From NCBI RefSeq assembly GCF_014281055.1, contig NZ_JACRSE010000004.1, positions 124,001 through 188,000 on the forward strand: DNA of 64,000 nucleotides. The letters run 5' to 3'. Within the stretch, counting starts at the first letter, position 1. Every line of letters begins with the position of its first letter. This DNA comes from Fluviispira vulneris (GTDB lineage Bacteria > Bdellovibrionota_B > Oligoflexia > Silvanigrellales > Silvanigrellaceae). Positions 35,749 through 64,000 of this stretch are shown here, one piece after another. Under the pieces are notes generated by a model that had not been told where the DNA came from, made no database searches, and saw only the letters and a list, made by a program, of their open reading frames with translations. A program made the translations under genes and the position numbers.

Positions 35749-35973
35749 AATTAAAATGTCCTTTTGTTGAAAAAAAGACACCTCATTTTGAAAACAAACC
35801 TGTAAGTAAGCTTGTAATCTTGCTTACTTTATGTATTATTTAATTATCAAATAACGGCAAGTAATTTGATTTTAAGGGGAAGCACGAGCTATGTGTCTTC
35901 CTCTTTTTTTGTATCAAACCTGACGTTATTTTACATACAGGTCGGGGAAGATCAAATGGGGGAAGGAGATGGA

Positions 35974-38050: not shown

Positions 38051-38510
38051 TTTTTTACTATTAAAAAATTTAGATATTTTATCAAAAAATCCAATATTAT
38101 TATCACTCGTTATAGATAATTTCTATAAATTTTCTATAAGGAAAGAAAAAAATATTTTATTAGTATATCTAATTATTCCCTTGGTATTAAGTGAAAATAC
38201 AAGATTATCTCTTTGTAATTCAAAAGCAACTAGTTCTTTATTTACTTTTTGTGGAAATAATAATAATATAAGTATGCTTCAAAATAAAATATTAAATCAA
38301 AAAAATTTATCAATTAAATCTTTGTATGTATCTTTGAGTTCAAAAAGATTAAAACTAAATGATGACTTATCTATTGATTTCATAAAAGAAAATGAACAAA
38401 TTAATAATATATATTTGGAAGAAAAAAAAGCTGCTAAAAAATTAGCTTTTTTACTTAATTCTTTTGATGTTAATACTATATATAGAATATTTGGAGTCAA
38501 ATTTATATGA
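38043..38510 (+). CDS. ABC-3C middle component
   Basis: A 155-residue protein with the pattern of the three-component ABC system middle component: LSKNPILLSLVIDNFYKFS at the start, a central LLVYLIIPLVLSENTRLSL and a C-terminal KLAFLLNSFDVNTIYRIFGV. It presumably bridges the nuclease-like effector and the ATPase. It overlaps both neighbours (8 bp and 4 bp), so the three are translationally coupled. Very AT-rich. Confidence 0.72.
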   Translation: MNDFLLLKNLDILSKNPILLSLVIDNFYKFSIRKEKNILLVYLIIPLVLSENTRLSLCNSKATSSLFTFCGNNNNISMLQNKILNQKNLSIKSLYVSLSSKRLKLNDDLSIDFIKENEQINNIYLEEKKAAKKLAFLLNSFDVNTIYRIFGVKFI

Positions 38511-41016: not shown

Positions 41017-41949
41017 TTATTTTTCAAGCTCGCTTTTTAATTTTAGTAAATATTTACTATATTTCTCTTTTTTCATTGCTTGTATATTTTTTAATTTCCA
41101 TTTGATAGCAGGAAAATTTTCTAAATTTTTGAAAGGTAATAAATTCCAATTAGGCTCTAAAGTGTAAAATGAATAAATAAAATCCCTATGGATATTGCTT
41201 AAATTATTATTTATTTCTTTTATTAATTTTTCCCTTGTTTCATTTAATTGATTCCAAGTTATGTTTTCTTCCGAAATTCCCGAAAATTCATTTGCAAATA
41301 ATTGTTCCTGATTTAGTTTGGTAGGGTTTAAAAGTTCATCAGGAGGTCTATTGTGTTGCATTAATATAACTACAAAGCAATCTATTAGTAATTTCGAAAT
41401 CTTTTCATTTTCTAAAAAAATTTTAACATCAAAAAGGTCCCTAGGGTGTTGTCTATCAAGAGCTGCGCAAAATTTTCCAGCATATATTTCTTCTAAAGAT
41501 AACAATCTCATTTCTGCGTCCATTCCAAAATTTTCACTAGCTTTTTTACATATTCTATGATCTTGATATGGCAATAAATTTCCACGTATAATTTCATTCG
41601 GTTCTATTTTTATGGCTGCTTTATTTGAATAGACATTTAGCTTTCTGTATCTGTTATCTTTAGAAATAATTGGATTAACTCTTATAACATCAGCATTATT
41701 TAATAATCTATTCTCTATATTTTTTAAACTATTGCTTATCCCTTCTAATGATGATTCTCTATCGCCTATTTGTAGCCAGGTTAAATCAATATCTACTGAC
41801 AATCTTGGTAAGTTTCTAATAAAGAGATTTATTGCAGTTCCTCCTTTTAGAGCAAAATTATTTTCTTTATAAATAATTGGAAGACATTTAATTAGAAGTT
41901 TAACCTGCTCTTCAAAAATGAAACTATTCATAGTTAACCTCTTGATCAA
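41017..41949 (-). CDS. AbiEii-type nucleotidyltransferase toxin
   Basis: Type IV/VII-like toxin of the AbiE system, 310 residues. The nucleotidyltransferase core is clear: ALKGGTAINLFIRNL followed by RLSVDIDLTW, giving the GG and DxD metal-site signature. AEMRLLSLEEIYAGKFCAALDRQHPRDLFD corresponds to the second conserved block (LSLEEIYAGKFCAALDR). AbiEii-like enzymes act on tRNA or nucleotides to arrest growth and abort phage infection. The gene overlaps the antitoxin gene by 26 bp, so the two are coupled. Confidence 0.88.
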   Translation of the reverse strand: MIKRLTMNSFIFEEQVKLLIKCLPIIYKENNFALKGGTAINLFIRNLPRLSVDIDLTWLQIGDRESSLEGISNSLKNIENRLLNNADVIRVNPIISKDNRYRKLNVYSNKAAIKIEPNEIIRGNLLPYQDHRICKKASENFGMDAEMRLLSLEEIYAGKFCAALDRQHPRDLFDVKIFLENEKISKLLIDCFVVILMQHNRPPDELLNPTKLNQEQLFANEFSGISEENITWNQLNETREKLIKEINNNLSNIHRDFIYSFYTLEPNWNLLPFKNLENFPAIKWKLKNIQAMKKEKYSKYLLKLKSELEK

Positions 41950-42730
41950 TTAATTCCTTAGGCACTGTAATTAGATATTTAGAATTAAAAATTCCATTTT
42001 TTTCGATTACTCTTTTTCCTTTTCCAAGTTCTACTTTGCTAGTATTAATTTTAGAAAACCATTTATGATTATTGAGTTCTGCTAAAAAAAGGAAAATTCT
42101 TTTTGCTTTAATTGAAGTACAATTTTCTAAAAGATTTTGTACTAATTCAGGCCTTAGAGTTGTTAAAGATGTAAATATTTCTGCGGTTTCTTGGAATGAA
42201 TATTGCGAAGGTATTCTATACATCATTTCAATAATTGCTCTTTCTGGTGTAGATAAAATGAGTTCTAAGTTGTTAATTTTAATTTTGGTAAGGCTACTTA
42301 CCTCAGTTTTTTTAAAAATATTTGTAGAATAAGTTTTTATTGTCGAGTTAAATTTAAGTTTAAATATCCATTTAGGTAAAAAATTATTCTCTGGGACTAT
42401 AATTGATATTGTCTGTTTATTTAAAGGCAAATAATGAGCGTATCCAAGCAACTCAAGAGCGCTTTTGCTGCCAACATGGATCATTAAATTTAGTTGAGAT
42501 TGTAAAGCCCAAGTAGCCCCTTGCCATGTAATTTCATCTTGATAGCGTAAAAATATCCCTTTTGCAGGTGATTTTAGCCATTTAGAATTTATATACTTTT
42601 GAATAAGTTCATACGGATAACCATTTTCAGTAAGCCATGATGAAACATATAGAGCATTTGCTGGCCAGTTTAAAAGAAGCTTTTGCAATGAGCTTTTGTT
42701 TTCCTCTGTTTCTAAGGATTTTGAAGTCAT
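41924..42730 (-). CDS. AbiEi-type antitoxin and autorepressor
   Basis: Antitoxin of the AbiE pair, 268 residues. The N-terminus is a winged-helix region (LYVSSWLTENGYPYELIQKY, WLKSPAKGIFLRYQDE), followed by the AbiEi domain (HVGSKSALELLGYAHYLPL, STPERAIIEMMYRIP). ATG 42730 is preferred because GAGGG lies five bases before it; a TTG four codons upstream is possible. Known AbiEi proteins bind inverted repeats to repress their own promoter, and two large perfect dyads lie just upstream here. Confidence 0.85.
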   Translation of the reverse strand: MTSKSLETEENKSSLQKLLLNWPANALYVSSWLTENGYPYELIQKYINSKWLKSPAKGIFLRYQDEITWQGATWALQSQLNLMIHVGSKSALELLGYAHYLPLNKQTISIIVPENNFLPKWIFKLKFNSTIKTYSTNIFKKTEVSSLTKIKINNLELILSTPERAIIEMMYRIPSQYSFQETAEIFTSLTTLRPELVQNLLENCTSIKAKRIFLFLAELNNHKWFSKINTSKVELGKGKRVIEKNGIFNSKYLITVPKELIDQEVNYE

Positions 42731-42755
42731 AAAGTCCCTCAAAGTAGGTAAGTTA

Positions 42756-44678: not shown

Positions 44679-44725
44679 ATTGATTCCAAAATAAACAAAT
44701 GCTAGAGAAACATGATGAAGAATTT

Positions 44726-46090
44726 ATGGCAAGTTGTGTTGTAAAATTTAGAGCATATCCAACTATTGAGCAAGCAAATATACTTTCTCGATGGATAGGT
44801 TGTGCTCGAGTTATTTATAATTGCAAAGTGTCAGAAGATAATCAAAATTATAGCGTATTTAAAAGCACAGGCGAAAAATCCTCGGTTCATCAGGCTTATT
44901 CACATTTTAAAACTGAAGAAAGAGATTGGCTAAATCAATGCCCGTCGCAAATTCTGCGCAATGCATCTTCAATTTGGTATACGGCAAAACAACGTTTCTT
45001 TAAAGGTATAGCTAAAAACCCTCGTAAAAAGAAAAAAGGAATAAAAGATACCGTCTTGCTTACGAATGAATTATTTAAATTCAATGATGAAATAAGCAAA
45101 GAAGGAGTTGTTTTAAAAAAACTAATAATTGGCACTAAATCAAAAGAATTAGGTGTTTTAAAATTCAAGGCTCATAGAGAGTTTGGAATTCCGCAACAAA
45201 TTGTTATTGGAAAAAAGAATAATAAGTGGTTTGTCTCGTTTTGCTATGAAGTAGAAGATATTGGAAAATCAGAACAAGATCTGTTGGATGAATATTCTCT
45301 TTTGGATGCAGAATCATTAAATGAACTCACCGTAGGGATTGATCGTGGCATTGTAATTCCATTTCAAACAAGCAATAAACTAAGTTATGATTTTGATGAT
45401 AAATCAAAAAATAAAATCAAGCTTAAACAAAGAAAGTTCAAAAAATATCAAAGAAAGTTATCACGGCAAAAAAAAGGTTCAAATTGTAGAAATAAAACTA
45501 AAATTAAAATTGCAAAAATTCATTCTAAAATAAGTAACATCAGGCATGATTTTTGCCACAAATTTTCTCATTCAATTGTTAATTCAGACGCAAAAATATT
45601 TGCAGTAGAAGATTTAAAACTAAAAAATATGACTAAATCTCCTAAGCCAAAGCAAGATGTAAATGGCAAATATTTGCCAAACATGCGAAAAGCCAAAGCA
45701 GGTTTAAATAGAGAACTGCTATCAAAAGGATTAGCAAAAACAATAGAGTTTTTAGAATATAAAGCTAAAAAATATGGTAAATTAGTCGTTAAAGTTTCAC
45801 CTCATTATTCTAGTCAGGAATGTGCCAATTGTGGCCACACTCACGCCGAAAATAGAAAAACACAAGATAATTTCTTATGTTTATTATGCGGAAATCATGA
45901 CAATGCTGATATAAATGCAGCAAAAATAATTGCTAAAAGAGGTGTGCAATTTCTTTTGTCAAAGCCAAAAGCTAAGACAAGAACTAGGCTAGGGACTAGC
46001 CGAAGTAAAGCTGGACGAGGAATAAGTAAGACGAAATTAGAGCAATCTAATCCGCTGATTCCTATAACTTCAGAAGCTTGCTCCCTTTAG
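44726..46090 (+). CDS. tnpB: TnpB, RNA-guided nuclease of the IS605 element
   Basis: RuvC-type nuclease ancestral to Cas12, guided by an RNA from the element's right end. About 454 residues. The RuvC acidic residues are present: Asp in TVGIDRGIVIPF, Glu in FAVEDLKLKNM and Asp in HDNADINAAKII. The zinc finger CANCGHTHAENRKT...CLLCG is intact. ATG 44726 gives the family start (CVVKFRAYPTIEQANIL); the frame is open with another ATG at 44699. The stop codon lies inside the right-end hairpin, so the guide-RNA scaffold would overlap the last codons. It appears functional although tnpA is dead. Confidence 0.88.
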   Translation: MASCVVKFRAYPTIEQANILSRWIGCARVIYNCKVSEDNQNYSVFKSTGEKSSVHQAYSHFKTEERDWLNQCPSQILRNASSIWYTAKQRFFKGIAKNPRKKKKGIKDTVLLTNELFKFNDEISKEGVVLKKLIIGTKSKELGVLKFKAHREFGIPQQIVIGKKNNKWFVSFCYEVEDIGKSEQDLLDEYSLLDAESLNELTVGIDRGIVIPFQTSNKLSYDFDDKSKNKIKLKQRKFKKYQRKLSRQKKGSNCRNKTKIKIAKIHSKISNIRHDFCHKFSHSIVNSDAKIFAVEDLKLKNMTKSPKPKQDVNGKYLPNMRKAKAGLNRELLSKGLAKTIEFLEYKAKKYGKLVVKVSPHYSSQECANCGHTHAENRKTQDNFLCLLCGNHDNADINAAKIIAKRGVQFLLSKPKAKTRTRLGTSRSKAGRGISKTKLEQSNPLIPITSEACSL

Positions 46091-48497: not shown

Positions 48498-48791
48498 TTA
48501 ACTACACTTAAAAGTATATTGAGCTTTTTTTATCGGTTTTGTTTGCGCATTTGTCAAACCATATTTTGAATTATCAACTTTAGTTTCAGACCCTTCAACA
48601 ACTTCATTCATTTTAACTAAATTTGCCTTCTTTCCACAATATTTATCTGCCTCTTCTTGAAATTTATCTTTCGATACCCACGTTTCACCTTGCAGAGTCA
48701 CTGTATTTGCTTCTTTATCAAATCCCACTGTTTGTACAAAAACGCAACCAGTAAGCATAATAGCAGCCATTGAACATACTAAAATTTTCAT
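48498..48791 (-). CDS. Small lipoprotein, paralogue of 34133-34426
   Basis: A 97-residue lipoprotein with signal MKILVCSMAAIMLTGC (lipobox LTGC). The mature part VGFDKEANTVTLQGETW, KYCGKKANLVKMNE and AQYTFKC matches the paralogue at 34133-34426 from end to end. GGAG lies about 9 nt before the ATG. The gap to the propeller gene (48253-48497) shows no further gene. Function unknown. Confidence 0.72.
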   Translation of the reverse strand: MKILVCSMAAIMLTGCVFVQTVGFDKEANTVTLQGETWVSKDKFQEEADKYCGKKANLVKMNEVVEGSETKVDNSKYGLTNAQTKPIKKAQYTFKCS

Positions 48792-49300: not shown

Positions 49301-52300
49301 ATGAACACAAGATCTCCTTCGGTACTAGCCTTACAATACTGGCATCAAGCGTTGATTTTTTCAAATATGACTAAACTAGCAAATGAAAACGAAGCAATTC
49401 CATTCAAAAATACTATTCACTTGAATTCTGGAAAATTTGAAAAAAAGATAATCGAGAGTGATAAATTCATGAATTTTTTCAAAGATAAATCCAAAGGAAT
49501 TGTAAAATTTATTCATCAAGATGGAAAAAGCAGCTCCTATGCTGAAACCTGGATATGCGCAGGATATAAAACTCAGAAAAAAAAGATGAATGTCATCCTT
49601 TCTGTACCCATCTTTGTAGATATCCAAGGAAATATTATTTCAAACACAAACTACCGACCTTTTCTAAACTCAAACTATTTAGAACCAGTTGACGAGATCT
49701 ACGCTACAAGTATTAAAATTGGCACACTAGCTCGATATGAGAAATTTTTAAGCAAGTATCCCTTATCTGATAATGAAAATGAATTGCAAAGCAATGAAAA
49801 ATTATCCAATGATTCTGAGACGCATGGCAAAAAACTACCAAATATCAATTGGTCGCAATGGTGGGAATATGCATATACTATGTTTTTGGAAACTTATAAT
49901 TCACCCGAAATTGAAAATTATAAAAGAATTCCATTATCAGATTTTTTAAGATCTAAAAGTTCAGATAAAGAGTGCTGGTATACACTCGTTTCTGTTCAAT
50001 TAGGTGAGAAAATGAATAAGTTACTTAGAGAGTCGTATTCCATAATTGAAAGAAAAATTCAAAACAAAAATGAAAATTTTAAGAATCAATATCCACTTTT
50101 ACATCATATATCTCAAGATCAATTTACACAAAATATTTTAGTTAGTGATGCAATAGAAGCAAACACTCTACACCACACGGGCCACATAGATTCTTTTGAC
50201 GAACAAGAGAGAATAAGAAAAAATTTCCCATTGGATCCTTCGCAGCGTGAAGCTCTTTTAACATTTTTAAGCACTCCAGATGGTTTTCCTTTAGCAATCA
50301 GTGGACCTCCGGGTACTGGAAAGACAAGTATGTTAAAAGCAGCAATTGCAACATTATGGGTAAATAAAACAATTGCAAATAATAATCCAGAGTGCCCCAT
50401 TGTGATTGCATCTTCATTTACAAATAATGCAACAAAAAATATAATTGGCAACTTTTCTGAAATTCCTGGCCGCATAGAAGAGCATTTACTTCTCCAAAGA
50501 TGGGTGTCAGGAATTTTAAGTTATGGTTGGTATTTCCCTTCTGAAGCCAAAAAAGAGGAATCACAACATTTAAATCTTTTGCATCAAAACTATTATAACT
50601 ACAATTCCATATATCTTTACCAAGCAGGAGGAGCCGCTGAGGAATTAAATCTATCAAAAAGAGAGCAGGCCAACCGGGAAAAGCGAAAATTCTTGACAAA
50701 TATAAATAATATATTTAATAAAGATTTTATATATATGGATCAATGCGTAAGATTTTTACATGACTCTTTAAAAAATCAATGTCAGAATATTCTTCCAAAA
50801 TTATATCACAGCTATAAAAACACTGTCAAAATTCTTATCAATAATGACATGAATCAACTCGAAGCCAGTTTACATAATATTGAGTTGCTGAAAAACGAGA
50901 TAGAACTTGAAGCTAAAAATAAAAATTTTTTAGAAAACTCATATATTTCTGAAATAACTGATTTAAAATACAAAAAAAATTATCTCCTCGGATTTTTTGA
51001 AAAATATATAAATAAAATTAATTACACAATAAATAGTAAATATTACAAATTTGTATTAACAAAACAATTTGTACAGTTTTATTTAAAAATAATTAAAACT
51101 GTGTTTTTTATTCTACTAATGAATAATAAAAAATTCAAGAAACTCTTATCAAATGAAAAAATCCCTTATAAATCAAGCTTTAAATTACAAGAAATCTTTA
51201 CTCAATTTGAGAATATTTTATTATTAGTGAATCTAAAAAGACTAGAATATGAAAGAGAAATTGTGAGTTTCAATTCCGAAATTACAAATATTAACAATAA
51301 TTACATACAATTTTTGGAAGAAAGACAAGATAAAATAAATGATGAAATTAGAAATTTCAAAATTCTTGAAGAATTTAACAATTCAATATTGTATATATTA
51401 GCTCAGTCTAAATTCTTTCTTCTCATTAATAAATTACCAGACCAATTTCGACTGTTTGATAACAAAATACAATCAATATATAAAATGAAAGATTCATTAG
51501 AAAAAGAAACAGCAGTGAAAAGAATCCAATTGTTTGAATCTTTTCAAGCATTACTTGATTGCACAATTAGAACCTATAATTTTCACATGACTGCACGATA
51601 CTGGGAAGGCCGTTGGCTCTGTACTAAATTTCCTGAGCAAAAAAATAGTTATAAGAAATCAAAAGACACACAGATAGACCAATTAAGATCATTTTGTATG
51701 TTAGCACCTTGTATTGTCTCTACATTTCACATCATGCCAAAACTTTTTCATGATAAAAACAACAATGTCAATTTTGGCAATGAAGCCGACCTTTTAATTA
51801 TTGATGAAGCTGGACAATGCTGTTTAGAAAATTCAATGGTGGCATTTTCATTTGCAAAAAGAGCTTTAATAGTTGGAGATGTCAAACAATTAGAACCCGT
51901 ATTCAATCTAGACAATGAAGCAGAACATTGCATAGCTAAAACTCTAAAGTTAACTGATAAAGAAAAAGAGGATATTTCTGATAGAGAAATTATGGCATCA
52001 AAAAATAATCTTATGTCGGTTCTACAAGAAAAATCATATTTTACAAAACCGTATTCAAACGGTCTGATGTTGACTAGACACTATCGCTGTGTACAAAACA
52101 TCATAGAATTCTGTAATGAATTAGTTTATGATGGTGATTTAATCCCTGTTATTAAGAATAAAAATTCCCTTTTTCCTTCTATGGGCTATGTATGCCATTC
52201 TTTCAAAGCAAGTCAAAAAAACGGAAGTTGGTACAATGAAGATGAATGTCTTGAAATTTTGGAATGGCTAAAAGAAAATGAAGATAAAATAACAAACGCA

Positions 52301-53668
52301 TATAATCCAGATGGCGTTATAAAAATTCCATTTTATAAATTAGTTGCTGTGATTACACCTTTTAAATACCAAGAAAAAATTTTAAAAGATAAAATTCATG
52401 CAGAGTGGTCTTTGCGAATAAAAAATCCTGATCAATTAGAATTATTTAAAAGACAATTTGTCATTGGAACCGTCCATTCCTTACAAGGAGCTGAATGTCC
52501 AATTGTAATATTTTCCTTAGTGAGCGATCGAGAAGATGGAAAAACAGTTTTTTGGGACAATAAAACTAATTTATTAAATGTAGCCGTTTCGCGTGCAAAG
52601 GATAGTTTTCTCGTCTTTTGCCACAGAGAATTTTTATTTCCAGAAAAAGTTTTATCAGAAAAAAGCAATATTCCAAGTGTAAAACTTGCAAAATATTTAC
52701 TTAATAATGGAAAACCTGTTTACCCCACTATTGCATTCGTTGTCGAGTCACCAAATAAAATCGAAACTATACAAAAATTGCTACCTAAAGATTATAAAGT
52801 ATTTGCCACAGGTGGCTTTTTTAGAGAATTAGATCTTGATGCACATGATACGATGGAAAAATCAATTTCATACCCTGTTTGGAAAATAAGAGAAGAAAGA
52901 CGGTTTCTCATAAATGAAATTAAAATTTTTTCCAGAGATTTTGACGAGATCATTTTAGCAACCGACAATGATAGAGAGGGAGAACTTATTGCATGGCACT
53001 TGAAAGAATATATAAGAAGTGAGTTTCCACAAAAAAGATTTATCTTTAAAAGGGTTCGATTCAATTCAATAGATAAAGTAAGTATTTTAACTGCAATTAA
53101 AAATTTTGAAGTAAAATTAAATAAAAACTTAATACAATCTGCTTTAATAAGGAATATCTATGACATTATTTATTCACAATTTATAAAATATAAGGCACTT
53201 AAATTAAAAAATTATAGCCATGAACTTCCATTTTTATCAAGAAATCATTTGTCTGTATTCAAAATCTTACAAGTGCAAAAGGAAAAAAGCAAACTCAGTG
53301 GCTACACTCTGCGAGTTAAATTCTCAATAAAATCGAGAAATAAATTTTTATTTGGAAAATCTGTAAGCTCAAATAGTCTTTTAAGTCAACAGAAGATTTT
53401 TCAAACTTTAGAAGCAGCAGAAGAATATGCTCATGCTTTAACTCAGCAAGAGTGGACACCATCACCGCTTTATTCATTAACAAAAACATTGCGCCCAAAA
53501 TCAGGAATGACAACAGCAGAAACACTAAAACGTGTTGCCCGCATGCATAAATTATCACCAGAAAAAACAATGGAAATTCTTCAAGCACTGTATGATGGCT
53601 CCGCAATGATCCAATCTTCTACCCATAATCCCAACAGTCATCGCTTTAATTTTGGAGGGGAATTTTAA
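49301..53668 (+). CDS. UPF1-like SF1 helicase fused to TOPRIM half of topoisomerase IA
   Basis: A 1455-residue protein. Residues 1-300 are unclassified. The SF1B helicase spans about 310-1110: Walker A GPPGTGKT 335-342, IIDEAGQ 833-839, VGDVKQLEP 858-866, LTRHYR 924-929, GTVHSLQGAE 1056-1065, NVAVSRAK 1093-1100; a coiled-coil insertion occupies about 450-750. From 1143 a type IA topoisomerase begins: VVESPNKIETI (E1149), ATDNDREGE (D1222, D1224, E1226) and the region up to SPEKTMEILQALYDG (1419-1433), which in TopA directly precedes the tyrosine motif. The chain stops 22 residues later. The rest of the topoisomerase is in the following genes. The stop overlaps the next ATG (TAATG). Confidence 0.85.
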   Translation: MNTRSPSVLALQYWHQALIFSNMTKLANENEAIPFKNTIHLNSGKFEKKIIESDKFMNFFKDKSKGIVKFIHQDGKSSSYAETWICAGYKTQKKKMNVILSVPIFVDIQGNIISNTNYRPFLNSNYLEPVDEIYATSIKIGTLARYEKFLSKYPLSDNENELQSNEKLSNDSETHGKKLPNINWSQWWEYAYTMFLETYNSPEIENYKRIPLSDFLRSKSSDKECWYTLVSVQLGEKMNKLLRESYSIIERKIQNKNENFKNQYPLLHHISQDQFTQNILVSDAIEANTLHHTGHIDSFDEQERIRKNFPLDPSQREALLTFLSTPDGFPLAISGPPGTGKTSMLKAAIATLWVNKTIANNNPECPIVIASSFTNNATKNIIGNFSEIPGRIEEHLLLQRWVSGILSYGWYFPSEAKKEESQHLNLLHQNYYNYNSIYLYQAGGAAEELNLSKREQANREKRKFLTNINNIFNKDFIYMDQCVRFLHDSLKNQCQNILPKLYHSYKNTVKILINNDMNQLEASLHNIELLKNEIELEAKNKNFLENSYISEITDLKYKKNYLLGFFEKYINKINYTINSKYYKFVLTKQFVQFYLKIIKTVFFILLMNNKKFKKLLSNEKIPYKSSFKLQEIFTQFENILLLVNLKRLEYEREIVSFNSEITNINNNYIQFLEERQDKINDEIRNFKILEEFNNSILYILAQSKFFLLINKLPDQFRLFDNKIQSIYKMKDSLEKETAVKRIQLFESFQALLDCTIRTYNFHMTARYWEGRWLCTKFPEQKNSYKKSKDTQIDQLRSFCMLAPCIVSTFHIMPKLFHDKNNNVNFGNEADLLIIDEAGQCCLENSMVAFSFAKRALIVGDVKQLEPVFNLDNEAEHCIAKTLKLTDKEKEDISDREIMASKNNLMSVLQEKSYFTKPYSNGLMLTRHYRCVQNIIEFCNELVYDGDLIPVIKNKNSLFPSMGYVCHSFKASQKNGSWYNEDECLEILEWLKENEDKITNAYNPDGVIKIPFYKLVAVITPFKYQEKILKDKIHAEWSLRIKNPDQLELFKRQFVIGTVHSLQGAECPIVIFSLVSDREDGKTVFWDNKTNLLNVAVSRAKDSFLVFCHREFLFPEKVLSEKSNIPSVKLAKYLLNNGKPVYPTIAFVVESPNKIETIQKLLPKDYKVFATGGFFRELDLDAHDTMEKSISYPVWKIREERRFLINEIKIFSRDFDEIILATDNDREGELIAWHLKEYIRSEFPQKRFIFKRVRFNSIDKVSILTAIKNFEVKLNKNLIQSALIRNIYDIIYSQFIKYKALKLKNYSHELPFLSRNHLSVFKILQVQKEKSKLSGYTLRVKFSIKSRNKFLFGKSVSSNSLLSQQKIFQTLEAAEEYAHALTQQEWTPSPLYSLTKTLRPKSGMTTAETLKRVARMHKLSPEKTMEILQALYDGSAMIQSSTHNPNSHRFNFGGEF

Positions 53669-54387
53669 TGCAAAATATTGAAAATGAAGTGCCACCGAAT
53701 TCAGTAATTAAATACCCAAGAACCGATGGACATCACACACCAAGTGACATTCAAGAAAGTGCAAATCCTTTTTTAAAAAGAGATCCTTTTGAAAGCATTG
53801 ATGACAATGATGTTCCAAGTTTTTTAAAATTTGCTGCACCAGAAGCTAATCCCAATTGTTTGGGTGCTGAGATTGAAACTGATGAATTTGATGAAATAAA
53901 ATCAAGAATAATAAAAGAAGCTCCATATCAAAAAGGTTGGCCCAAATTTGGCAATGATCCGAAGCATACTATGTATTTATTGAGTTACTTTTTAGGTATT
54001 CCTAAACCTGTCACCTTATCTCATGGCACAAAATTATATCGCCTCGTTGGAGCATTAGCAAATAAATTCAAAACCAATGATTACTGTGGTGAGTGGTGGG
54101 CATTGGAACCGCCACCTGCCACTGAAGAAGAATGGCGTTCTGGTTATGCAGTTTGGAATCATTGGAATGGGGATGGAGGTTATATAGAATACACAGTCGG
54201 GAAAGAAGGTTTAAATGTTTGGTTGGGCATTACTGGACCACAATCTCTAGAAAATTATGAAGTATTTTTGCGAGGTGGAAAAACTCAAATATGGGTTCCA
54301 CAAAATACCATCAACCCATTAAAAAATGGTCTGTCGAAAAAAATTATTACGAAACGCTCCCCTTGGAATTTAGAAGAGGATAATTAA
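53668..54387 (+). CDS. Topoisomerase IA tyrosine motif joined to an ART/TNT-like domain
   Basis: A 239-residue protein. Residues 13-28 (VIKYPRTDGHHTPSDI) match the topoisomerase IA active-site segment, with candidate nucleophile Y16 and R18, although the usual Ser after YPRTD is Gly. After a linker, about residues 118-215 look like an ADP-ribosyltransferase or TNT-like NAD-using domain: KLYRLVG (R125), GEWWALEPPPATEEEW, AVWNHWNGDGGYIEYTV and LRGGKTQIWVP (Q207), cf. the GGGTQ of TNT toxins. Its ATG overlaps the preceding stop, so translation is coupled. The topoisomerase reading is supported by the matching halves on either side; the ART reading is pattern-based. Confidence 0.65.
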   Translation: MQNIENEVPPNSVIKYPRTDGHHTPSDIQESANPFLKRDPFESIDDNDVPSFLKFAAPEANPNCLGAEIETDEFDEIKSRIIKEAPYQKGWPKFGNDPKHTMYLLSYFLGIPKPVTLSHGTKLYRLVGALANKFKTNDYCGEWWALEPPPATEEEWRSGYAVWNHWNGDGGYIEYTVGKEGLNVWLGITGPQSLENYEVFLRGGKTQIWVPQNTINPLKNGLSKKIITKRSPWNLEEDN

Positions 54388-54390
54388 AAA

Positions 54391-54810
54391 ATGAATGCAA
54401 TTGAATGGGTGAAGGAGTGCTTTGTTATTGCTTCAGAATTAGAAAAATTGGTGAATTTATTAACTCAAATGGAAAAAGAAGGAGAGAAAAGAGAAGAAGA
54501 AGGGTTTCAAGATATTTGTACAGGTTTTCTCCAAGTTGCAAAAAGAAATATGCATTCAGAGAAAGATGCTCTTTTAGAAGCAATAAATTTAAAAAATCCT
54601 CGAAAAGTATTTTGCTCTCTTTGCTCTATCCAAGGGACTTATAAATATTTTAGTGATGAAAATCTCTCTTGGTCACAACTGTGGAATGGAGCGACTTTAT
54701 ATCACAGCATTTTAGATAAAATTATATTACTTATTCAATATGAAAAAGTAGGACTACATAAAAAAGAATTCGCAGAAGCCCTGTTAACTTATGATCCACT
54801 CGAAAAATAG
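54391..54810 (+). CDS. Small helical protein within the topoisomerase operon
   Basis: A 139-residue soluble protein predicted all helical, with a charged stretch EKEGEKREEEGFQD and Cys residues in KVFCSLCS. No family recognised. It begins 3 bp after the ART-like gene and ends 8 bp before the topoisomerase C-terminal gene. A position right after a possible toxin domain is where an immunity or antitoxin protein is often found, which is only inference. Confidence 0.6.
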   Translation: MNAIEWVKECFVIASELEKLVNLLTQMEKEGEKREEEGFQDICTGFLQVAKRNMHSEKDALLEAINLKNPRKVFCSLCSIQGTYKYFSDENLSWSQLWNGATLYHSILDKIILLIQYEKVGLHKKEFAEALLTYDPLEK

Positions 54811-54818
54811 GAGTTCGT

Positions 54819-55577
54819 ATGAAGCAAACTCAATCGGCCCATCCACAAATAACACCGGTGAATTTTAAATACACCCCAGAATTAATGGATCAATTTCTGA
54901 TCTCCCCAAGTAAAGAAGTCTATAAAATAATCTATCAAGGTTCTTTTGCAACGTTAAAAGAGCCAGCAGTACTGAATATAAATGGTTTCATTCTAAGCGC
55001 ACAAAATAAAGATGAAATTAAGTTATTATTTACGTCTGCAGATCTCGTTTCAGAAGGTTGGCTAGAAGTCGATGAATACAAGCGGCAAGAAAATATGAGA
55101 GAATTTCCAAACCCAGATAAAATTTTGAAAGAAATATATTCAGAGGCAGTTTCTCTTGAGTTTGATGGTTGCCGCATCTATTCTGTCGAAGAACCATATA
55201 TAAAACTCGATGATTTTATCACTCAACTTGAAAAATATCATATTGGAAAACCATCAACTTATGCTTCTCTATTTGCAAAGATAGAAAAAAATGTGCTTGA
55301 TGGATTTATTGAAAAGAAAATGATCAAAGAAGGATCTGAACAAAAGGAATGTATAACATATGAAATCACTTCAAAAGGTGAAGATTTTTTACAATACTTT
55401 AGCCAATTAGATGATCCCTTTTTAAATCTAGATAATGCTCAGCTGTTTGAAACTTATCTGCAGAAAATTGCAAATGACGAAATATCTAGACAGGATTTTG
55501 AGCGTAAATTTTTTTCAATTTTTCGACAAAACTTTTTAAGTAAGATAAACATAGAATGGATTGATTCTTGTGAATAG
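54819..55577 (+). CDS. C-terminal part of topoisomerase IA as a separate protein
   Basis: A 252-residue protein with the topoisomerase IA gate region. SAHPQITP near residue 6 corresponds to the AHEAIRPT motif; KEVYKIIYQGSFATLKEPA to the LYELIWKRFLASQM helix; EEPYIKLDDFITQLEKY and HIGKPSTYASLFAKIE (141-156) to the highly conserved GIGRPSTYA segment; ITSKGEDFLQYF to the following winged-helix end. The zinc-ribbon repeats of TopA are absent. AGGAG five bases before ATG 54819. With the two earlier genes it would rebuild a whole topoisomerase core. Confidence 0.82.
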   Translation: MKQTQSAHPQITPVNFKYTPELMDQFLISPSKEVYKIIYQGSFATLKEPAVLNINGFILSAQNKDEIKLLFTSADLVSEGWLEVDEYKRQENMREFPNPDKILKEIYSEAVSLEFDGCRIYSVEEPYIKLDDFITQLEKYHIGKPSTYASLFAKIEKNVLDGFIEKKMIKEGSEQKECITYEITSKGEDFLQYFSQLDDPFLNLDNAQLFETYLQKIANDEISRQDFERKFFSIFRQNFLSKINIEWIDSCE

Positions 55578-56569: not shown

Positions 56570-56830
56570 ATGACTACTCCCAGAAAACGTCTTCCATCGC
56601 AATCTAGTGTTCGTTGGGATGAGGATTTGCAGCCATTAGTGGCAGAGTGGTTTGAGAAAAATCCAGGTTGGACTGTTTCTCAACTTGCAAATCAAGCAAT
56701 ACGCAAATTTGTTTTATCCCCTTATTCCACAACTCCTGTTGAACTGGTTCCTCTTGATAAGGGAGAAGCTATTAAATTAGCTGATAAAATTATGCTTGAT
56801 CATTCAGATGCTTTAGAGCGTCTGAAATGA
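56570..56830 (+). CDS. Antitoxin of the Doc toxin pair
   Basis: An 86-residue small protein. The N-terminus SSVRWDEDLQPLVAEWFEK and SQLANQAIRKFVLSPY resembles a ribbon-helix-helix DNA-binding fold, and the C-terminal tail (EAIKLADKIMLDHSDALERL) could be the toxin-binding helix. It overlaps the Doc gene by 4 bp (ATGA), the usual antitoxin-first order. AGGAGG lies upstream of its ATG. Autoregulation by the antitoxin is expected for such modules. Confidence 0.78.
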   Translation: MTTPRKRLPSQSSVRWDEDLQPLVAEWFEKNPGWTVSQLANQAIRKFVLSPYSTTPVELVPLDKGEAIKLADKIMLDHSDALERLK

Positions 56831-57234
56831 AAATTAAAATGATTGATACTGAGATTGTTCTTAAAGTAAACAAAAAAATAACTTTTTCTTTTGGACAAAA
56901 GCACGTTTGCGCTCATCCTGAAAAGATAGAAAGTGCTTTGTATGCAGCAATTTATCCAGGTCAGTTTCCTTTTGTTCATGGTGGAACAGTCGATATTGCA
57001 GCAGCAATGTTTTATTATGTTATAAAAACACATGCTTTTTTTGATGGCAATAAAAGAACAGCTCTTATATGTTCTCTTATTTTTTTAGAAAGTAACGGTT
57101 GGACTTTAAAATATCCCGTCTCTGAAAAAAGTAATAAGTTTGCAGAATTAGCTGAAGACTGCGCCTCAAATGCTAAAAATTTAGACGAAATAAAAAAATG
57201 GTTTAATAATCATAAAATGAAAATTACTTTCTAA
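56827..57234 (+). CDS. doc: Doc-type toxin (Fic fold)
   Basis: A 135-residue Fic-superfamily protein of the death-on-curing type. The active motif HAFFDGNKR at 69-77 fits H-x-F-x-D-G-N-K-R. Doc kinases phosphorylate EF-Tu and stop translation; other Fic proteins transfer AMP. The start region VCAHPEKIESALYAAIYP and the length are those of Doc. Coupled to the upstream antitoxin. Confidence 0.88.
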   Translation: MKIKMIDTEIVLKVNKKITFSFGQKHVCAHPEKIESALYAAIYPGQFPFVHGGTVDIAAAMFYYVIKTHAFFDGNKRTALICSLIFLESNGWTLKYPVSEKSNKFAELAEDCASNAKNLDEIKKWFNNHKMKITF

Positions 57235-57282: not shown

Positions 57283-60200
57283 TTAAACCTCCCATTCCTT
57301 ACAAAGATGTTCTGCTTGTTCTAGGATAAGATGAGTGGCTTGCTCGGAAAGATCAGGTGGGTATCCATGGAGTTTTAAAAGTCTTTTAATTGCCATTCTT
57401 ACTTTTGCACGAGACGTTTCTTTCACAGCCCAATCGGTGTCTAAATTTTCTTTGATAATTTTCACAAGTTCTGTCGCAATATGTTTTAAAATATTATCTC
57501 CTAAAACTTTAACTGCGGAATCATTGATCTCAAGCGCATCATAAAAAGCCATTTCATCTTCATTCAGCCCCAGATTTTCACCACGTTGATGTGCTTTGCG
57601 AATATCTTTGGCCATATCAATTAAATCTTCAATCACTTTTGCAGTTTCAATCGCTCTATTTCTATATTTTTGTAAAGAATTGTCGAGCATTTCTGAAAAC
57701 TGACGCTCTTGCACTTTATTGCGTCTCAGCTTTGTTTTTACCTGATCACGGATGAGACGTTCTAATAATTCAATTGCCAAGTTTCTTTGTGGGAGGCCAC
57801 GAACTTCAGCTAAAAAATCGTCCGATAAAATTGAAATATTCGGTTTTTTAAGTCCTGCTGCGCTAAAGATATCAATCACACCATCAGAAAAAACGGATTT
57901 TGATAAGAGTTGTCTAATAGCAAGTTCTTTTTCTTCAATTTTTAAAACACTACCAGGTTCTGTTTTATTTAAGGCTGCATTTAAATTTTGAAAAAAGACA
58001 AGTTCATCTCTTATTTCTTCTGTTACTTTATCTGGCACTGCTAAGGCAAATGCTTTTGACAATTGGTAAACAGCATTGGTAAAGCGCTTCTTTCCATCAT
58101 CTTGAACTAAAATATGCTCAAGAGCTGAGGGAATTATTTTCAAAGCTTCAGATGGGTTTTTTAAAGATTTTTGATAAGAGAAACCATGCATAATTCCAAG
58201 ACAGATTTCATATTTTTCTATCATTATAGCAACGGCATCTTCTTTGTTTAATGTTGGCCGACCGGAACCACCACTTTCTGTATATGTGTGCATGGTTTTC
58301 TTTAAGGCGTCAGCGATACCAATATAGTCAACGACAACTCCACCGGGTTTGTCTTTAAAGACTCGATTTACCCGTGCAATAGCTTGCATTAAACCATGCC
58401 CATGCATGGGTTTATCGATATACATAGTGTGCATGGAAGGAGCATCAAAACCAGTCAGCCACATATCACGCACAATAACAATTTTAACTGAAGAAGAATT
58501 GTCTTTAACGATATTTGCCATTTCTTCGCGACGTGCTTTACTGCGGACATGTTTTTGCCACTCTTCAAGATCGGAGGCCGAGCCCGTCATAATAACTTTT
58601 ATTGTTCCTTTATCGTCTTCATCAGAATGCCAATCTGGTCTTAATTTTATAATTTCATTATATAGACTCACACAAATTCTTCTCGACATACAGACGATCA
58701 TGGCCTTGCCATTGATTGAGACTTGCCGTGTTTCAAAATGATCGACAAAATCCTTAGCAACTTCTGCAAGACGTGATTGAACACCAACTAAAGTTTCTAG
58801 GGAAGCCCATTTTGATCGTCTTTTTTGTGCTTCAGTGGTGTCTTCTGCTTCTGTCAATTCTTCCATTTCTTCATCGAGATTCACTTGCGTATCCCTAGAA
58901 AGTCGAATCAAGCGACTTTCATAATACAAAGGAACAGTTGCACCATCTGCAATCGAGCGTTCAATATCGTAAATGGAAATATAATCACCAAATACTGCTC
59001 GTGTGTCCGCATCCGTTTTTGCTATGGGTGTTCCTGTGAATCCAACAAAACTCGCATTGGGTAACGCTGCGCGCATATTGCGAGCAAAACCATCAAGGAA
59101 GTCGTATTGACTGCGGTGTGCTTCGTCGGCAATCACAATAATATTTTTTCTCTCTGAGAGAAGTGGAAAATCATCTCCCTTACTTTCAGGCATAAATTTT
59201 TGTATTGTCGTAAAAAAAATACCGCCAGAAGCCACAATTAATTTTTCCTGCAATTCCTTGCGGCTCTCAATTTGCACAGGTGTTTGCCTTAATATTTGTA
59301 TACAACGGCTAAATTGGCCAAAGAGCTGATCATCGAGATCATTTCTATCTGTAAGTACAATGATGGTTGGGTTTTCCAATTCTTTTTTTTGCGCTGCATA
59401 TCCAGCATAGAAAACCATACTAAATGATTTTCCAGAACCAGTCGAATGCCAAACAGTCCCTATGCGCTTGTCATTTTTAATTGCAGTGATTGTTTTTTGA
59501 ATGGTATTTCTCACTGCATTAAATTGATGATAGCCTGCTATAATTTTAATTGTTTTATCATCTTTTGCTTCAAACGCTACAAAGTGTTTGATAAAATCGA
59601 TAAATCTTTCTTTGGCAAAGAGTCCTTTGATTAAAACTTCTAAAGAAAGCATCGAATTTGGCGCAAGCTCTTCGGAATCTATGGTCCGCCACACTTGATA
59701 GCGTTCTCGATCGGCTGTGAACGAGCCGACTTTTGTATATAAGCCATCGGAAATAACATTCAAAGCTGTGTAGTTAAATATACTTGGAATTTCTTTTTTA
59801 TAAGTTTGAATTTGATTATATGCTTCCCAAATATCTGTTTTTGTATCCGCAATCGTTTTTAATTCTATTAAGGCAAGTGGTAAGCCGTTAACATAAACAA
59901 GAATATCGGGACGCCGATTGTTTTTATTCTCGATAATTGTCATTTGGTTGATGACAAGAAATTCATTATTTTCTAAATTGTCAAAATCAATTAATTTGAT
60001 ATTGTCGGACTTTGTTCCATTGTTACTTTGATACTGGATATCCACACCATCCGTTAAAAATTTATGACAGTGTTTATTTTGTAAAATAGGGTTTGTTATA
60101 TCAAATAGACAAACTTGTCTCAGTGTTTCTTCAAGAGCATCTGAGGAAAGACCTGGATTTATTCTTTCAATTGCAGAACGGATTCGATTGACTAAAATCA

Positions 60201-60333
60201 CATCTGAATACGTACTACGCTCTTCATACTGTGCTTCAGGGGCAATATCAGGGCCAAAAACTGTTTCATAACCAATTTCTTCAAACCATACTTTTGCTTC
60301 TTTCTCTAGGGTATCTTCCGTGATTAATGTCAT
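57283..60333 (-). CDS. hsdR: Type I restriction enzyme R subunit
   Basis: Motor and nuclease subunit of a type I restriction system, about 1016 residues. The N-terminal nuclease domain shows [21 protein letters not shown], seen as [10 protein letters not shown] and LALIELKT (PD-ExK). The SF2 translocase has [17 protein letters not shown] (Walker A), [14 protein letters not shown] (DEAH), FVGFTGTPI and [10 protein letters not shown] (motif VI). The long helical C-terminus is typical. ATG 60333 (MTLITEDTL) is preferred; an ATG 8 codons earlier is possible. It is the last gene of the hsdM-hsdS-TIR-hsdR operon, 42 bp after the TIR gene. Confidence 0.95.
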
Positions 60334-60375
60334 TTTGAGTCCCTTTTCTGCAATCATCCTTGATTGGTGGTAGAG

Positions 60376-61548
60376 TTAACTTTTGTTCTTTTTGACTATC
60401 TCTTTTCCTTCTATACAATAAGAATGCTTTGTGTGCTTAGTTAATATATCATTTTCAAGAAATTCTCTATAGTAAGAATAGTTTTTCAATTTAGGGTGAT
60501 CTTTATGCTCTGGCTTTATGGGTGCTGAAATAATAATACTTAATTGGTTCAAATATTTTGCTTCTGCAGAAAATGCAAAAACAACTTGCTCGATTTCTTC
60601 ATCATTTAAATTAATATCGATAAGTTCATAAAACATATTTTTAGCATTTTCAAAAGAACCATTGATAGCTTTTACAAAATTATCAATAAAATAATTCTTA
60701 AACTTGTTATTTTTTTCAAAATCTTTTTTTATACAATTTATAAGATCTGGAAATCCAGCTTTAATTGCTTGAGTATCAATTTTAAATCCTTTTGGATCAG
60801 TTTTATCTACACTGAAAAGGTAAATAGGAATTCCACGCGCTAATGCAAAACCAACTTCTTGGTTTGTCCATTCACTTTTATAAAAATCATCTTTAATGTA
60901 ACAAATACAGGCATCCATTGTTAGCAATGCCTTCATAATTTCATGCTTCCAAGTACTCATAGGTTGGATAGAATCATGCGCTACAAAGCAAGAAATTCCA
61001 AAATTTTTTAATTTTTCTCCTAGTCCCTTAGCTTCACCCTTATGAATATCTCTATGAGAAATAAAAAACTTTAAGCTGTTCGGAAACCAAATATTTGCAA
61101 CTTCCTCGTCTTTAGGTACTTGAACTCTATTTGTTTCTTTAAAGGAAAATATAAAACCGCTAGCGACTTCCTTTTCAGGATATAATTCCCATCCTTCAGC
61201 TTTGAGCCAATCATTTGCAATAGAAATTATTTTACTTGCTTTCTCTTGATCAGGTCTAACAAGTGGATGCGTCATTTCGCAAATAAATCGTAAAAATGTT
61301 TCATCATCCCCTTCTAAGAGATTAAAGCGCGAATCTGTAAAAACCCAATTGAATTCGTAATCACAATTATTCTCTGTATGATTGTATATATCTCCATAAG
61401 CATCTTCAAATCTATGATCAAGGGATGGTAATTTTTTAAGATCGTATATACGTGTTAGGAAATTGAGGTCACTCATTCGTCCCGAAAATTGAATTTCCGC
61501 CATCTCAAAGTGGTCAATGATATTTCTTCTTGTTCCTTTATCAATCAA
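60376..61548 (-). CDS. AbiJ-NTD/TIR protein inside the hsd operon
   Basis: A 390-residue protein. Residues about 1-135 match the AbiJ N-terminal-type domain (FLTRIYDLKKLPSLDHRF, WVFTDSRFNLLEGDDETFL, MTHPLVRPD). Residues about 158-265 are a TIR domain: SLKFFISHRDIHK, GISCFVAHDSIQPMSTWKHEI, ACICYIKDDFYKSEW and TNQEVGFALARGIPIYLF, with the likely NAD-hydrolase glutamate E231. The last about 110 residues are unclassified. It overlaps hsdS by 8 bp, so it belongs to the restriction operon. A TIR NADase would kill or arrest the infected cell if restriction fails; that coupling is inference. Confidence 0.82.
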   Translation of the reverse strand: MIDKGTRRNIIDHFEMAEIQFSGRMSDLNFLTRIYDLKKLPSLDHRFEDAYGDIYNHTENNCDYEFNWVFTDSRFNLLEGDDETFLRFICEMTHPLVRPDQEKASKIISIANDWLKAEGWELYPEKEVASGFIFSFKETNRVQVPKDEEVANIWFPNSLKFFISHRDIHKGEAKGLGEKLKNFGISCFVAHDSIQPMSTWKHEIMKALLTMDACICYIKDDFYKSEWTNQEVGFALARGIPIYLFSVDKTDPKGFKIDTQAIKAGFPDLINCIKKDFEKNNKFKNYFIDNFVKAINGSFENAKNMFYELIDINLNDEEIEQVVFAFSAEAKYLNQLSIIISAPIKPEHKDHPKLKNYSYYREFLENDILTKHTKHSYCIEGKEIVKKNKS

Positions 61549-62797
61549 CAGTCACCTCATTCAATTCAATTTCTCCTGATATAAGTTTAGGTAGGAGAAG
61601 ATCGCGTGTATTTTTAAGCGAAAGTATTTCTTTATAGTTTGATAAATATAGTTGATCTAGAGGTAGAGTTAAGTTTAAAAATTTGTATATTATTTCGTCA
61701 GGCGGAAAAACAGATTTAATTTCAGACAAAGTATCTTTGTTTATAGATCCAAAGACGGTCCCTTCACCGTTGTACATATCAAATTTTTCTTTAAGACACT
61801 GTAGTAAGTAGTATGTATAAGTTGTACTTCCTGTTTTGTGAAGTATTCCTGCTAATCCTCGCCCGATACAGGTTTGATTTTCTGTCGAGATATTGAGGTC
61901 ACCAACTGGTGCACGAACAGAAAGAAGAACGGTTCCCTGCTTTACTATCCTAGAGGGTTCCGAACAAAATAGTCTAGGTGAGGGAAAACGACTTCCAAAT
62001 TCAGCTCGTCCTTGAAAAAAGACCATTCCGATACCATTTTCATTGTAAGTGCTTCCAGGGGGTGACTGCCCCATAAGTATTTCACATGAACCCTTGAGTG
62101 TCTTTATAGTCCACCCCTTAGGAATCAAGCCAAGCTCAGACTCTTCAAAACTATCAGGAAAAAGCGCAGCCGTTTCGTCATCCATACCGAACGGTTTTTT
62201 GCCTTCAGATTTCGCTTTAACAGGGCCAAAATCAATAAACCATTCTTTGAAAATGGCTTTTGCCATGGATTCGAGGGTTTCATTCATTTTTTGGTTTAAT
62301 TCGATTTTTGAATCCAGTGTATCGAGAATATTGATAATTTTTGACTGAACATAAATATCTGGTAATTTAATTTCTAAATTTTCTAATGCAACTTGCTGTA
62401 TTCTCTGTCGTCCAGAACTTCCAGTCATGCTACGGATTGCCTCGTTTCTAAAATTCTCAGAAATTGCTAAGTAATAAATATATTTTGCAAGTGTCATATT
62501 TTCTTTGGCAGAAAGCACAATATATTCAGTTGAACCAAATCCAACTTCATTATTCGATAAATCACTTATAAAAGCAGTTTTACCATTCTCCAAACATGGA
62601 GTAATTCTGGCTACTAATGTATCTCCATTAGCAAATTTAGCTCCACCGTTATATTCTTTTTTATAAATTGAATTTGGTCTTCGTGTAAAAGGAGTTATCG
62701 CTTCCATAGGTATAAAGGGAGCTATTTTCCCTTTTTGTAAAGCTCTATTTGGATTAAATACAATTGCTTCAGAAAGCTTTATTTTTTTAAAAGCCAT
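61541..62797 (-). CDS. hsdS: Type I restriction specificity subunit
   Basis: HsdS sets the DNA target of methylation and cleavage. 418 residues with two target-recognition domains, each followed by a conserved helix. The first TRD ends at [28 protein letters not shown] (spacer helix, here [16 protein letters not shown]), with [19 protein letters not shown] after it. The second starts [15 protein letters not shown] and ends [18 protein letters not shown]. The two TRDs recognise the halves of a bipartite site, not deducible here. It overlaps hsdM by 11 bp. Confidence 0.93.
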
Positions 62798-64000
62798 TTA
62801 AAACCTCTGTGATTTTATTCTGTAAAATAATGCTTTCTTTAAACTGAATAAATAATTTTGATTTTAGTGCAGAAATCTTCTCCTCAAAACTCTCCCCATC
62901 ATCTTCAACTTCTTCTGCTCCAACGTAACGACCTGGTGTTAAAACCCAACCATTTTTCTCAATTTCATCAATATGAACTGCTTTACAAAAGCCTGCTTTA
63001 TCTTCGTATTTACCGGCATTTTTTTCACCACGCCATGCATGATATGTTTTGGCAATGACATTTTTAATTTCATCATCAGTCAGTTCTCGTTGCACACGGG
63101 AGAGCATGACACCCATTTTTCGACAATCGATAAACAAAAATTCTTTTTGCCGATCGCGAAAACCATTTTTCTTTTTATAGCGTGCTAAAAACCAAAGGGA
63201 CGCAGGAATTTGTGTGGTATAAAATAATTGCCCTGGTAAGGAAACAATACAATCGACGATATCGCCTTCAATTAACTTTCTTCTAATCTCTCCTTCACTG
63301 GATTGATTGGAACTTAAACTCCCATTAGCGAGAACAATACCTGCATAGCCATGCGGTGAAAGGTGATGAACCATATGCTGTAACCAAGCATAGTTTGCGT
63401 TTCCTTCTGAGGGAACACCAAATTTCCAACGGATATCGTCTTTTAAGCGTTCTCCGCCCCAATCGCTTATATTAAAAGGCGGATTGGCTAAAATATAATC
63501 AGCTTTTAAATCTTTATGTTGATCATTGTGAAAAGAATCCGCGTTCATTTCACCTAAGTTTCCTTCCAGCCCGCGGATTGCTAAGTTCATTTTTGCCAAT
63601 TTCCATGTGGTTGGATTTGATTCCTGCCCAAAAATAGAAAGCTGACCCCGCTTGCCGCCGTGTGCTTCTAAGAATTTTTCCGATTGAACAAACATACCGC
63701 CAGAACCGCAGCATGGGTCATATATTCGACCTTTAGTGGGTTCAATCATTTCGACTAAAAGTTTTACAATACAGCCTGGAGTATAAAATTGCCCCCCAAG
63801 TTTTCCTTCTGCAGATGCAAACTTACCCAGAAAGTATTCGTAAACTCGACCTAAAATATCTTTCTGTTTACTTGCTTTATCGCCAAGACCAATTTTAGAG
63901 ATCAAGTCGACAAGTTCACCAAGCATTTTTTTATCGAGATCTGGGCGTGCATAGTCCTTTTGCAGAACTCCTTTTAAAGATTTATTTTCTTTTTCTATGC
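62787..64000 (-). CDS. hsdM: Type I restriction methyltransferase (5' end outside window)
   Basis: N6-adenine methyltransferase subunit of the type I system. Motif [13 protein letters not shown] and the catalytic motif [11 protein letters not shown] are present. The frame continues upstream of Met 63926 to the window edge with family-like sequence ([20 protein letters not shown]), so the true start lies beyond base 64000. [17 protein letters not shown] and the N-terminal helical region [13 protein letters not shown] are standard. The first gene of the visible operon, upstream of hsdS. Confidence 0.95.

Follow-up and report, generated by a model that had tools for sequence, protein, structure and literature searches.

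A type IA topoisomerase divided over several genes, with its catalytic tyrosine on a protein that ends in a toxin-like tip, was characterized in Fluviispira vulneris (GCF_014281055.1, contig NZ_JACRSE010000004.1) and compared with related loci. The window, that is, the whole stretch of 64,000 nucleotides analysed, covers positions 124,001-188,000 of the forward strand, and the system occupies window positions 49301-55577. The enzyme is not cut into three arbitrary pieces: its catalytic tyrosine is kept off the TOPRIM part and is borne by the tip-carrying protein. The anatomy of the split system, as read from the sequences of 22 loci, is firm. The system may represent an anti-invader defence in which a topoisomerase lacking a tyrosine borrows that of the toxin, so that cleavage would join the toxin to DNA, a reading that we hold with about even confidence.

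Genes and domains of the F. vulneris system

Four open reading frames lie on the plus strand and encode P1 (49301-53668, 1455 residues), P2 (53668-54387, 239 residues), P3 (54391-54810, 139 residues) and P4 (54819-55577, 252 residues). The genes for P1 and P2 overlap by one base (TAATG), and gaps of 3 and 8 bases separate P2 from P3 and P3 from P4, respectively, in agreement with the initial annotation of this DNA, which had described the genes as coupled or within 8 bp of each other. The congener G006 has the same four genes in the same order with protein identities of 60-74%, which argues that the layout is not due to chance. The ratios of nonsynonymous to synonymous substitution rates (dN/dS) against G006 were 0.255, 0.139, 0.167, and 0.154 for genes 1-4, rough values that come from one pair and a simple method with dS above 1.

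P1 joins a helicase to the first part of a topoisomerase. Residues 1-1137 (49301..52711) are a superfamily 1 (SF1), UPF1-like helicase of the Mokosh type II MkoC family; the PADLOC MkoC profile matched residues 10-1137 (5e-175, profile positions 8-967 of 1136), and the match stops where TOPRIM starts. Pfam matches in P1 were AAA_12 (5e-22), AAA_11 (2e-18), and Toprim (4e-17). Residues 1146-1455 (52736..53668) comprise TOPRIM and the topoisomerase IA part that follows it, with matches to NCBIfam topA_bact (1.6e-30, profile positions 3-298 of 632, at a score under the model's full-length cut-off) and to TopA structures in the PDB (2.9e-15). No PLD domain was matched in P1 by Pfam or NCBIfam at E up to 1. 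The protein ends in TMEILQALYDG, just short of the place of the tyrosine.

The tyrosine is found at the start of the next gene. Residues 1-41 of P2 (53668..53790) hold the topoisomerase tyrosine segment IKYPRTDGHH, with the tyrosine at residue 16 (bases 53713-53715). Neither Pfam nor NCBIfam matched P2 at E up to 1; the tyrosine segment is short, and its assignment is supported instead by conservation of the motif in 22 of 22 loci and by its location, which falls between the parts matched in P1 and in P4. The remainder of P2 (residues 42-239, 53791..54387) is a toxin-like tip with no assigned activity. The P3 gene (54391..54810), whose product has a Pfam match of its own below the cut-off only, is probably the cognate immunity gene for the tip, as suggested by its position, which comes after the tip in the window and likewise in G006 and the congener G007.

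P4 (54819..55577) is the C-terminal half of the topoisomerase. It begins at the catalytic-histidine motif AHPQITP (His at residue 8), also contains IGKPSTYAS, and matched Pfam Topoisom_bac above the cut-off (3.2e-13, profile positions 210-409), NCBIfam topA_bact (5e-13, profile positions 350-573 of 632), and the TopA of Thermotoga maritima (PDB 2gai, 1.6e-6), the last in an alignment beginning at AHEAIRP. An uninterrupted type IA topoisomerase is encoded elsewhere in the same genome, and the split enzyme is therefore probably not the housekeeping one.

The motifs quoted in the initial annotation (ALYDG, IKYPRTD, AHPQITP, and HIGKPSTYAS) are all present in the translations, and its description of a topoisomerase IA divided over three genes, in normal order here and with the first piece fused to a UPF1-like SF1 helicase, was borne out by the family matches in P1 and P4 and by the motif in P2. 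It had regarded a lack of Topoisom_bac matches in the second and fourth genes as evidence against this description; such a match is present in P4 and absent from P2. It overlooked that most of P2 is an exchangeable toxin-like tip and that P3 is probably encoded by the immunity gene for that tip.

Conservation of the separate tyrosine

The helicase motif FHxxARYWE occurred only in topoisomerase-fused relatives when three fused and five non-fused helicases were compared, and it was therefore used as a DNA pattern to search viral_contigs and genome_contigs. The pattern matched once in viral_contigs and 26 times in genome_contigs; the latter matches were 17 topoisomerase-fused loci (TOPRIM was in the first stretch for 13 and came to light in the remaining four when the region was extended), five helicases in which no TOPRIM was found, and four unrelated sequences. 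The motif is not exclusive to fused helicases: among the five without TOPRIM, a pattern search found PLD-like motifs in L025 and L023 (the latter when extended, L061), no PLD-like motif in L024 and L033, and neither a PLD-like nor a TOPRIM motif in L030. The 17 fused loci, together with the window, G006, the Polaromonas JS666 plasmid, the virus contig and one further Pseudomonas genome, make up the 22 loci compared. The search is biased toward topoisomerase fusions and not toward tyrosines or tips, and the loci are partly non-independent, since three Pseudomonas loci are close to each other, as are three Vibrio/Psychrosphaera loci.

None of the 22 loci encodes a complete, continuous topoisomerase chain with its own tyrosine. 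Y-x-R-[T/S/A] was found near the start of a chain other than the TOPRIM chain in all 22, with the tyrosine at residues 4-8 in 19 loci, at residues 16 and 19 in the window and G006, and at residue 53 in Massilia. Twenty of the 22 P1 chains lack the motif downstream of the TOPRIM DxD, and it is absent from all 18 separate P4 chains; the two P1 exceptions are out of place, inside TOPRIM in the window and after the catalytic histidine in Massilia. Several gene starts are approximate, and the start of the Azoarcus P2 was picked by hand.

Five arrangements of the pieces were observed. The order P1-P2-P3-P4 is present in six loci (the window, G006, Polaromonas, Lysobacterales, a gamma single-cell genome, and Tatlockia), and 11 loci have P1-P4-P2 followed by the next gene. 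P1 and P4 form one tyrosine-less chain followed by P2 in three (Undibacterium, Pseudomonas G370, and Massilia). Acidithiobacillus has P1, a 155-residue gene, P2 and P4, and Azonexus, discussed below, has the fifth arrangement. The 155-residue gene of Acidithiobacillus (L046 8188-8655, oriented), a presumed immunity gene, stands ahead of the tip gene rather than after it.

The residues that we take to be catalytic, by reference to Escherichia coli TopA, are invariant across these arrangements. The P2 tyrosine and arginine are conserved in 22 of 22 loci, the histidine is the sole invariant column of P4, and the 14 invariant columns of the P1 part include the TOPRIM glutamate, lysine and both aspartates.

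The named hosts of the 22 loci are proteobacteria; the virus contig and a plasmid complete the set. The family is sparse: in the class to which the window belongs, 2 of 58 genomes have it (that of the window being one), and a strict threshold gave 2 of 298 genomes in the genus Pseudomonas, again counting that of the query. Alignment A1 gave no useful match in viral_contigs or genome_contigs, nor did P2 in phages or the P2 proteins of G370 and Psychrosphaera in plasmids, and the Polaromonas P4 matched only itself in plasmids. The tree of the loci contains four open forks and three long branches, and its deep order is not interpreted here. Its labels "ART?", "TypeV", "PDEXK", and "HNH3" are working labels presumed from motifs, and the members scanned gave no family match.

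Exchangeable tips and partner genes

P2 carries a C-terminal tip in 21 of the 22 loci, and by our own sorting the tips fall into six groups with 8, 4, 3, 3, 2, and 1 members. Two of the six groups, covering nine of the 21 tip-bearing loci, were recognised and both are nucleases: the eight HNH-type tips and the Marinomonas tip, which is an Endonuclea_NS_2 nuclease (7.6e-32) accompanied by a YezG-like immunity gene. The slot of P3 is filled by SUKH- or YezG-type genes in eight loci other than the window. Vibrio, Psychrosphaera and Massilia have a common tip (Vibrio-Massilia E of 2e-9) adjoined by a propeller-like gene, of which one was weakly matched and the rest were assigned by reading. The tips of Pseudomonas, of Undibacterium/G370, and of the window, G006 and Acidithiobacillus form three groups without an assigned activity, and their neighbours are taken as immunity genes by position.

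The tips differ even where the segments that carry them are alike. Within one branch, the tyrosine domains of Vibrio, Marinomonas and Pseudomonas are alike (E of 1e-8 to 4e-14) and their tips are unlike (E above 0.3; all single-pair E-values). The window tip matched that of the Acidithiobacillus member (1.4e-9), and the tyrosine segments of the two gave no match. In G007 the homologue of P2 is 69% identical in a match that starts at residue 42 and does not include the tyrosine segment, and a homologue of gene 3 comes next. Homologues of the window tip were also detected in a 486-residue protein inside a type VI secretion system (T6SS) cluster of Rahnella and in a Tritonibacter protein. Inspection by eye of the G007 region (L009 2976-16182) showed a 579-residue TpsB-like gene and repeated toxin/immunity-like cassette pairs, with homologues of the window tip and gene 3 among them.

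Whole P2 proteins were also searched against plasmids. Among the matches listed (19 of 451, Polaromonas itself aside), all begin at residue 101 or later, and these 19 records are annotated as LXG polymorphic toxins (two), a pre-toxin TG domain protein (one) and plain HNH proteins (15), with one carrying no annotation. The Pseudomonas P2 matched three plasmid records, all starting at residue 108 or beyond, and one of these is a PAAR-domain protein. Fourteen of the 22 P2 proteins were scanned with Pfam, and no secretion or trafficking domain was among their matches.

The HNH-type P2 of the virus contig was modeled from seven sequences with a predicted local distance difference test score (pLDDT) of 86.1. 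Foldseek returned no match to this model at E of 0.001 or better (best 0.24). In a second structural comparison (best Z of 4.5) the matches included HNH proteins (Cas8-HNH, the Rhs2-CT toxin, and colicin E7) and also teneurins, mainly over residues 87-203 with the first 86 barely covered, so that the modeled fold may lend weak backing to the HNH assignment of this tip.

Genomic context

The F. vulneris system lies in a defence island (33785-63926) beyond a tRNA-Arg gene. PADLOC identified LmuB of Lamassu (38507-40504), AbiEi/AbiEii (41017-42742) and type I restriction-modification genes (57283-63926), and integrase-like fragments (34591-35781), a TnpB-like gene (44699-46090), and a Fic/Doc-like gene with a small partner (56570-57234) were recognised by eye. 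Two similar, 97-residue, lipoprotein-like open reading frames on the minus strand, also noted by eye, are located near the tRNA-Arg gene (34133-34426) and just upstream of the system (48498-48791).

The neighbours of six other members, picked by eye rather than counted systematically, include HsdM and specificity genes in Vibrio thalassae, an OLD-like ATPase in Vibrio coralliilyticus, phage integrases in Psychrosphaera, Marinomonas, and Pseudomonas viridiflava, and a serine recombinase in Lysobacterales. Directly upstream of the helicase, loci of the Vibrio/Pseudomonas/Undibacterium type (L051-L056, L058, L059, L066) have a gene of 379-735 residues, possibly for a further subunit; the two such genes scanned, from the Vibrio and G370 loci, gave no Pfam match. 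The Polaromonas plasmid likewise has a 590-residue gene upstream of the helicase (L007 5616-7388) with no Pfam match.

Proposed mechanism and alternatives

In the mechanism that we propose, P1 and P4 would form a topoisomerase without its own nucleophile, P3 would keep P2 harmless, and the N-terminal segment of P2 would dock in the active site. Once the helicase encounters or unwinds DNA that is foreign or abnormal, the complete enzyme would cut single-stranded DNA, and the cut 5' end would become covalently bound to the tyrosine of P2. Because P2 is a chain separate from the rest of the enzyme, the toxin could then leave with the DNA or be freed and escape immunity. The loaded toxin may destroy that DNA, an outcome suggested because both recognised tip groups are nucleases, or it may stop the cell if it has its target elsewhere. 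The invariance of the catalytic set while much else drifts suggests that coupling the toxin to DNA could be the point of the design, a question on which we are evenly divided. The wider proposal, a new immune principle in which each cut covalently loads an interchangeable toxin onto attacked DNA and the payload is swapped by recombination of toxin/immunity cassettes, is tentative and stands slightly short of an even balance. We infer both the anti-phage role and the mechanism from sequence comparisons. The initial annotation had suggested a DNA-remodelling complex, possibly for defence or for a mobile element; the defence context is likely, but remodelling undersells the system, which loading or release of an effector would fit better.

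Several results weigh against this mechanism. The third acid of the TOPRIM DxDxE is glutamate in eight loci, aspartate in three, and neither in 11 of the 22, so the TOPRIM chemistry may be altered. In Azonexus (L044 9009-10286), P1 is followed by a tyrosine segment fused directly to the P4 part (AHPMITP), with no tip. Four of the six tip groups, the window's among them, are without a recognised activity, and the HNH group itself is weakly matched, with seven of eight tips matching PF01844 (best 7.7e-5) and seven of their eight partners matching SUKH-1 (best 3.6e-5), both at E up to 0.1. The immunity role is assigned by position only in the window, in 11 other tip-bearing loci and for one HNH partner. 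A profile search of the window tip against the PDB returned chance-level matches only, Pfam returned nothing useful for six tip homologues, and the fold model of the window P2, made from two sequences, was of low confidence (mean pLDDT of 34.3). The tyrosine domains of distant branches share little but the motif, with no match between Lysobacterales and Acidithiobacillus and an E of 0.34 between Vibrio and Undibacterium.

Some of these points would suit a different use of the same parts. The topoisomerase pieces could be a sensor clamp that holds P2 by its tyrosine segment, and activation would free the toxin with no lasting bond to DNA. We consider this unlikely, but it has a precedent in Hachiman, in which, according to the examined part of the report (PMC10925250), the sensor helicase HamB liberates the nuclease HamA. 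A toxin paired with an immunity protein suits abortive infection, the third TOPRIM acid is lost in half of the loci, and the window tip is no recognised nuclease. Such docking and release would leave unexplained why the tyrosine, arginine, histidine, and TOPRIM E/K/D/D are invariant in 22 of 22 loci, the histidine being the only such column in P4. Both this alternative and the covalent mechanism predict a defence with a helicase as sensor; they differ over a tyrosine-dependent adduct.

Other explanations were judged to be less probable still. P1, P2, and P4 might simply relax DNA as an ordinary split topoisomerase, the toxin/immunity cassette serving only to hinder loss of the genes. Exchange of the tips and the tipless Azonexus locus, in which the cassette may have been dispensable, agree with such addiction, but the tip is kept in 21 of 22 loci, it stays with the tyrosine also where the two remaining pieces are joined in a single chain, and an uninterrupted type IA topoisomerase is already available from elsewhere in the genome, which makes this improbable. 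It is very improbable that a toxin-DNA conjugate leaves the cell, with the tyrosine as its pilot, to poison recipients, by analogy with relaxases in conjugation: the tips are common to a T6SS-cluster protein, LXG effectors and a PAAR-domain protein, and the plasmid that carries one family member has been typed as conjugative, but no secretion or coupling gene was noticed inside the clusters, although no systematic search was made, and both the helicase family and the neighbours that were inspected suggest defence. A broken topoisomerase gene or an assembly artefact could be imagined from the normal order of the pieces in the window and from a P2 without a family match. This explanation, which the initial annotation had named as one that would refute its reading, was rejected and has almost negligible probability, given that the separation is kept in 22 loci with five arrangements, that dN/dS is 0.14-0.26 for all four genes, and that the catalytic residues are invariant.

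If true, covalent loading would link type IA topoisomerase chemistry, Mokosh-type helicase immunity and interbacterial polymorphic toxins, which we have not seen connected, and it predicts a protein-DNA adduct that can be tested. It would also suggest that the tips of secreted toxins can be recruited, along with their immunity genes, as intracellular effectors, and it could provide a natural, modular means to join a protein cargo to single-stranded DNA. Even if the toxin is only released, we know of no other enzyme with its nucleophile on an exchangeable toxin.

Comparison with known systems

The F. vulneris enzyme resembles TopA and TopB in its TOPRIM, tyrosine, arginine, histidine, and recognisable C-terminal part. 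It differs in having the tyrosine on another chain, a fused helicase, and, in 11 of the 22 loci, no third TOPRIM acid. Reverse gyrase also has a helicase fused to a type IA topoisomerase, but its helicase belongs to superfamily 2 and its topoisomerase is unbroken with its own tyrosine. The split topoisomerase, the toxin and the MkoC-like helicase of the present system set it apart, and a relative of reverse gyrase was ruled out on the AAA_11/AAA_12 assignment of the helicase.

Polymorphic toxins and contact-dependent inhibition (CDI) systems share with P2 a variable C-terminal tip on a kept N-terminal part and probably an adjoining immunity gene, and the tips here are homologous to parts of such proteins. 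The N-terminal part here is instead a topoisomerase tyrosine segment, and no secretion or trafficking domain was recognised in the 14 P2 proteins scanned. Hachiman (HamAB) has, to our knowledge, an unrelated effector and no topoisomerase, toxin tip or immunity protein. It is similar in that a sensor helicase controls a separate effector, as described in the examined part of its report (PMC10925250).

Mokosh type II has the MkoC helicase in common with the present system over about 1,130 residues. Mokosh type II carries a PLD-like domain, according to the part of the source examined (PMC10952713), and several of the helicase relatives without the fusion that were checked end in PLD-like motifs. 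In the present system the PLD end is replaced by a topoisomerase whose tyrosine is on the tip-bearing protein, and further genes are added; plain membership of Mokosh type II was ruled out, as the C-terminal end of P1 matches Toprim and topA_bact without PLD. A literature search of titles and the starts of abstracts, with few subscription papers covered, found no topoisomerase with its tyrosine on a toxin and no Mokosh helicase combined with a topoisomerase, and the word topoisomerase is absent from the examined part of a 2012 survey of polymorphic toxins (PMC3482391). Taken alone, the helicase would be a variant of Mokosh type II, and the effector arrangement matches no kind known to us.

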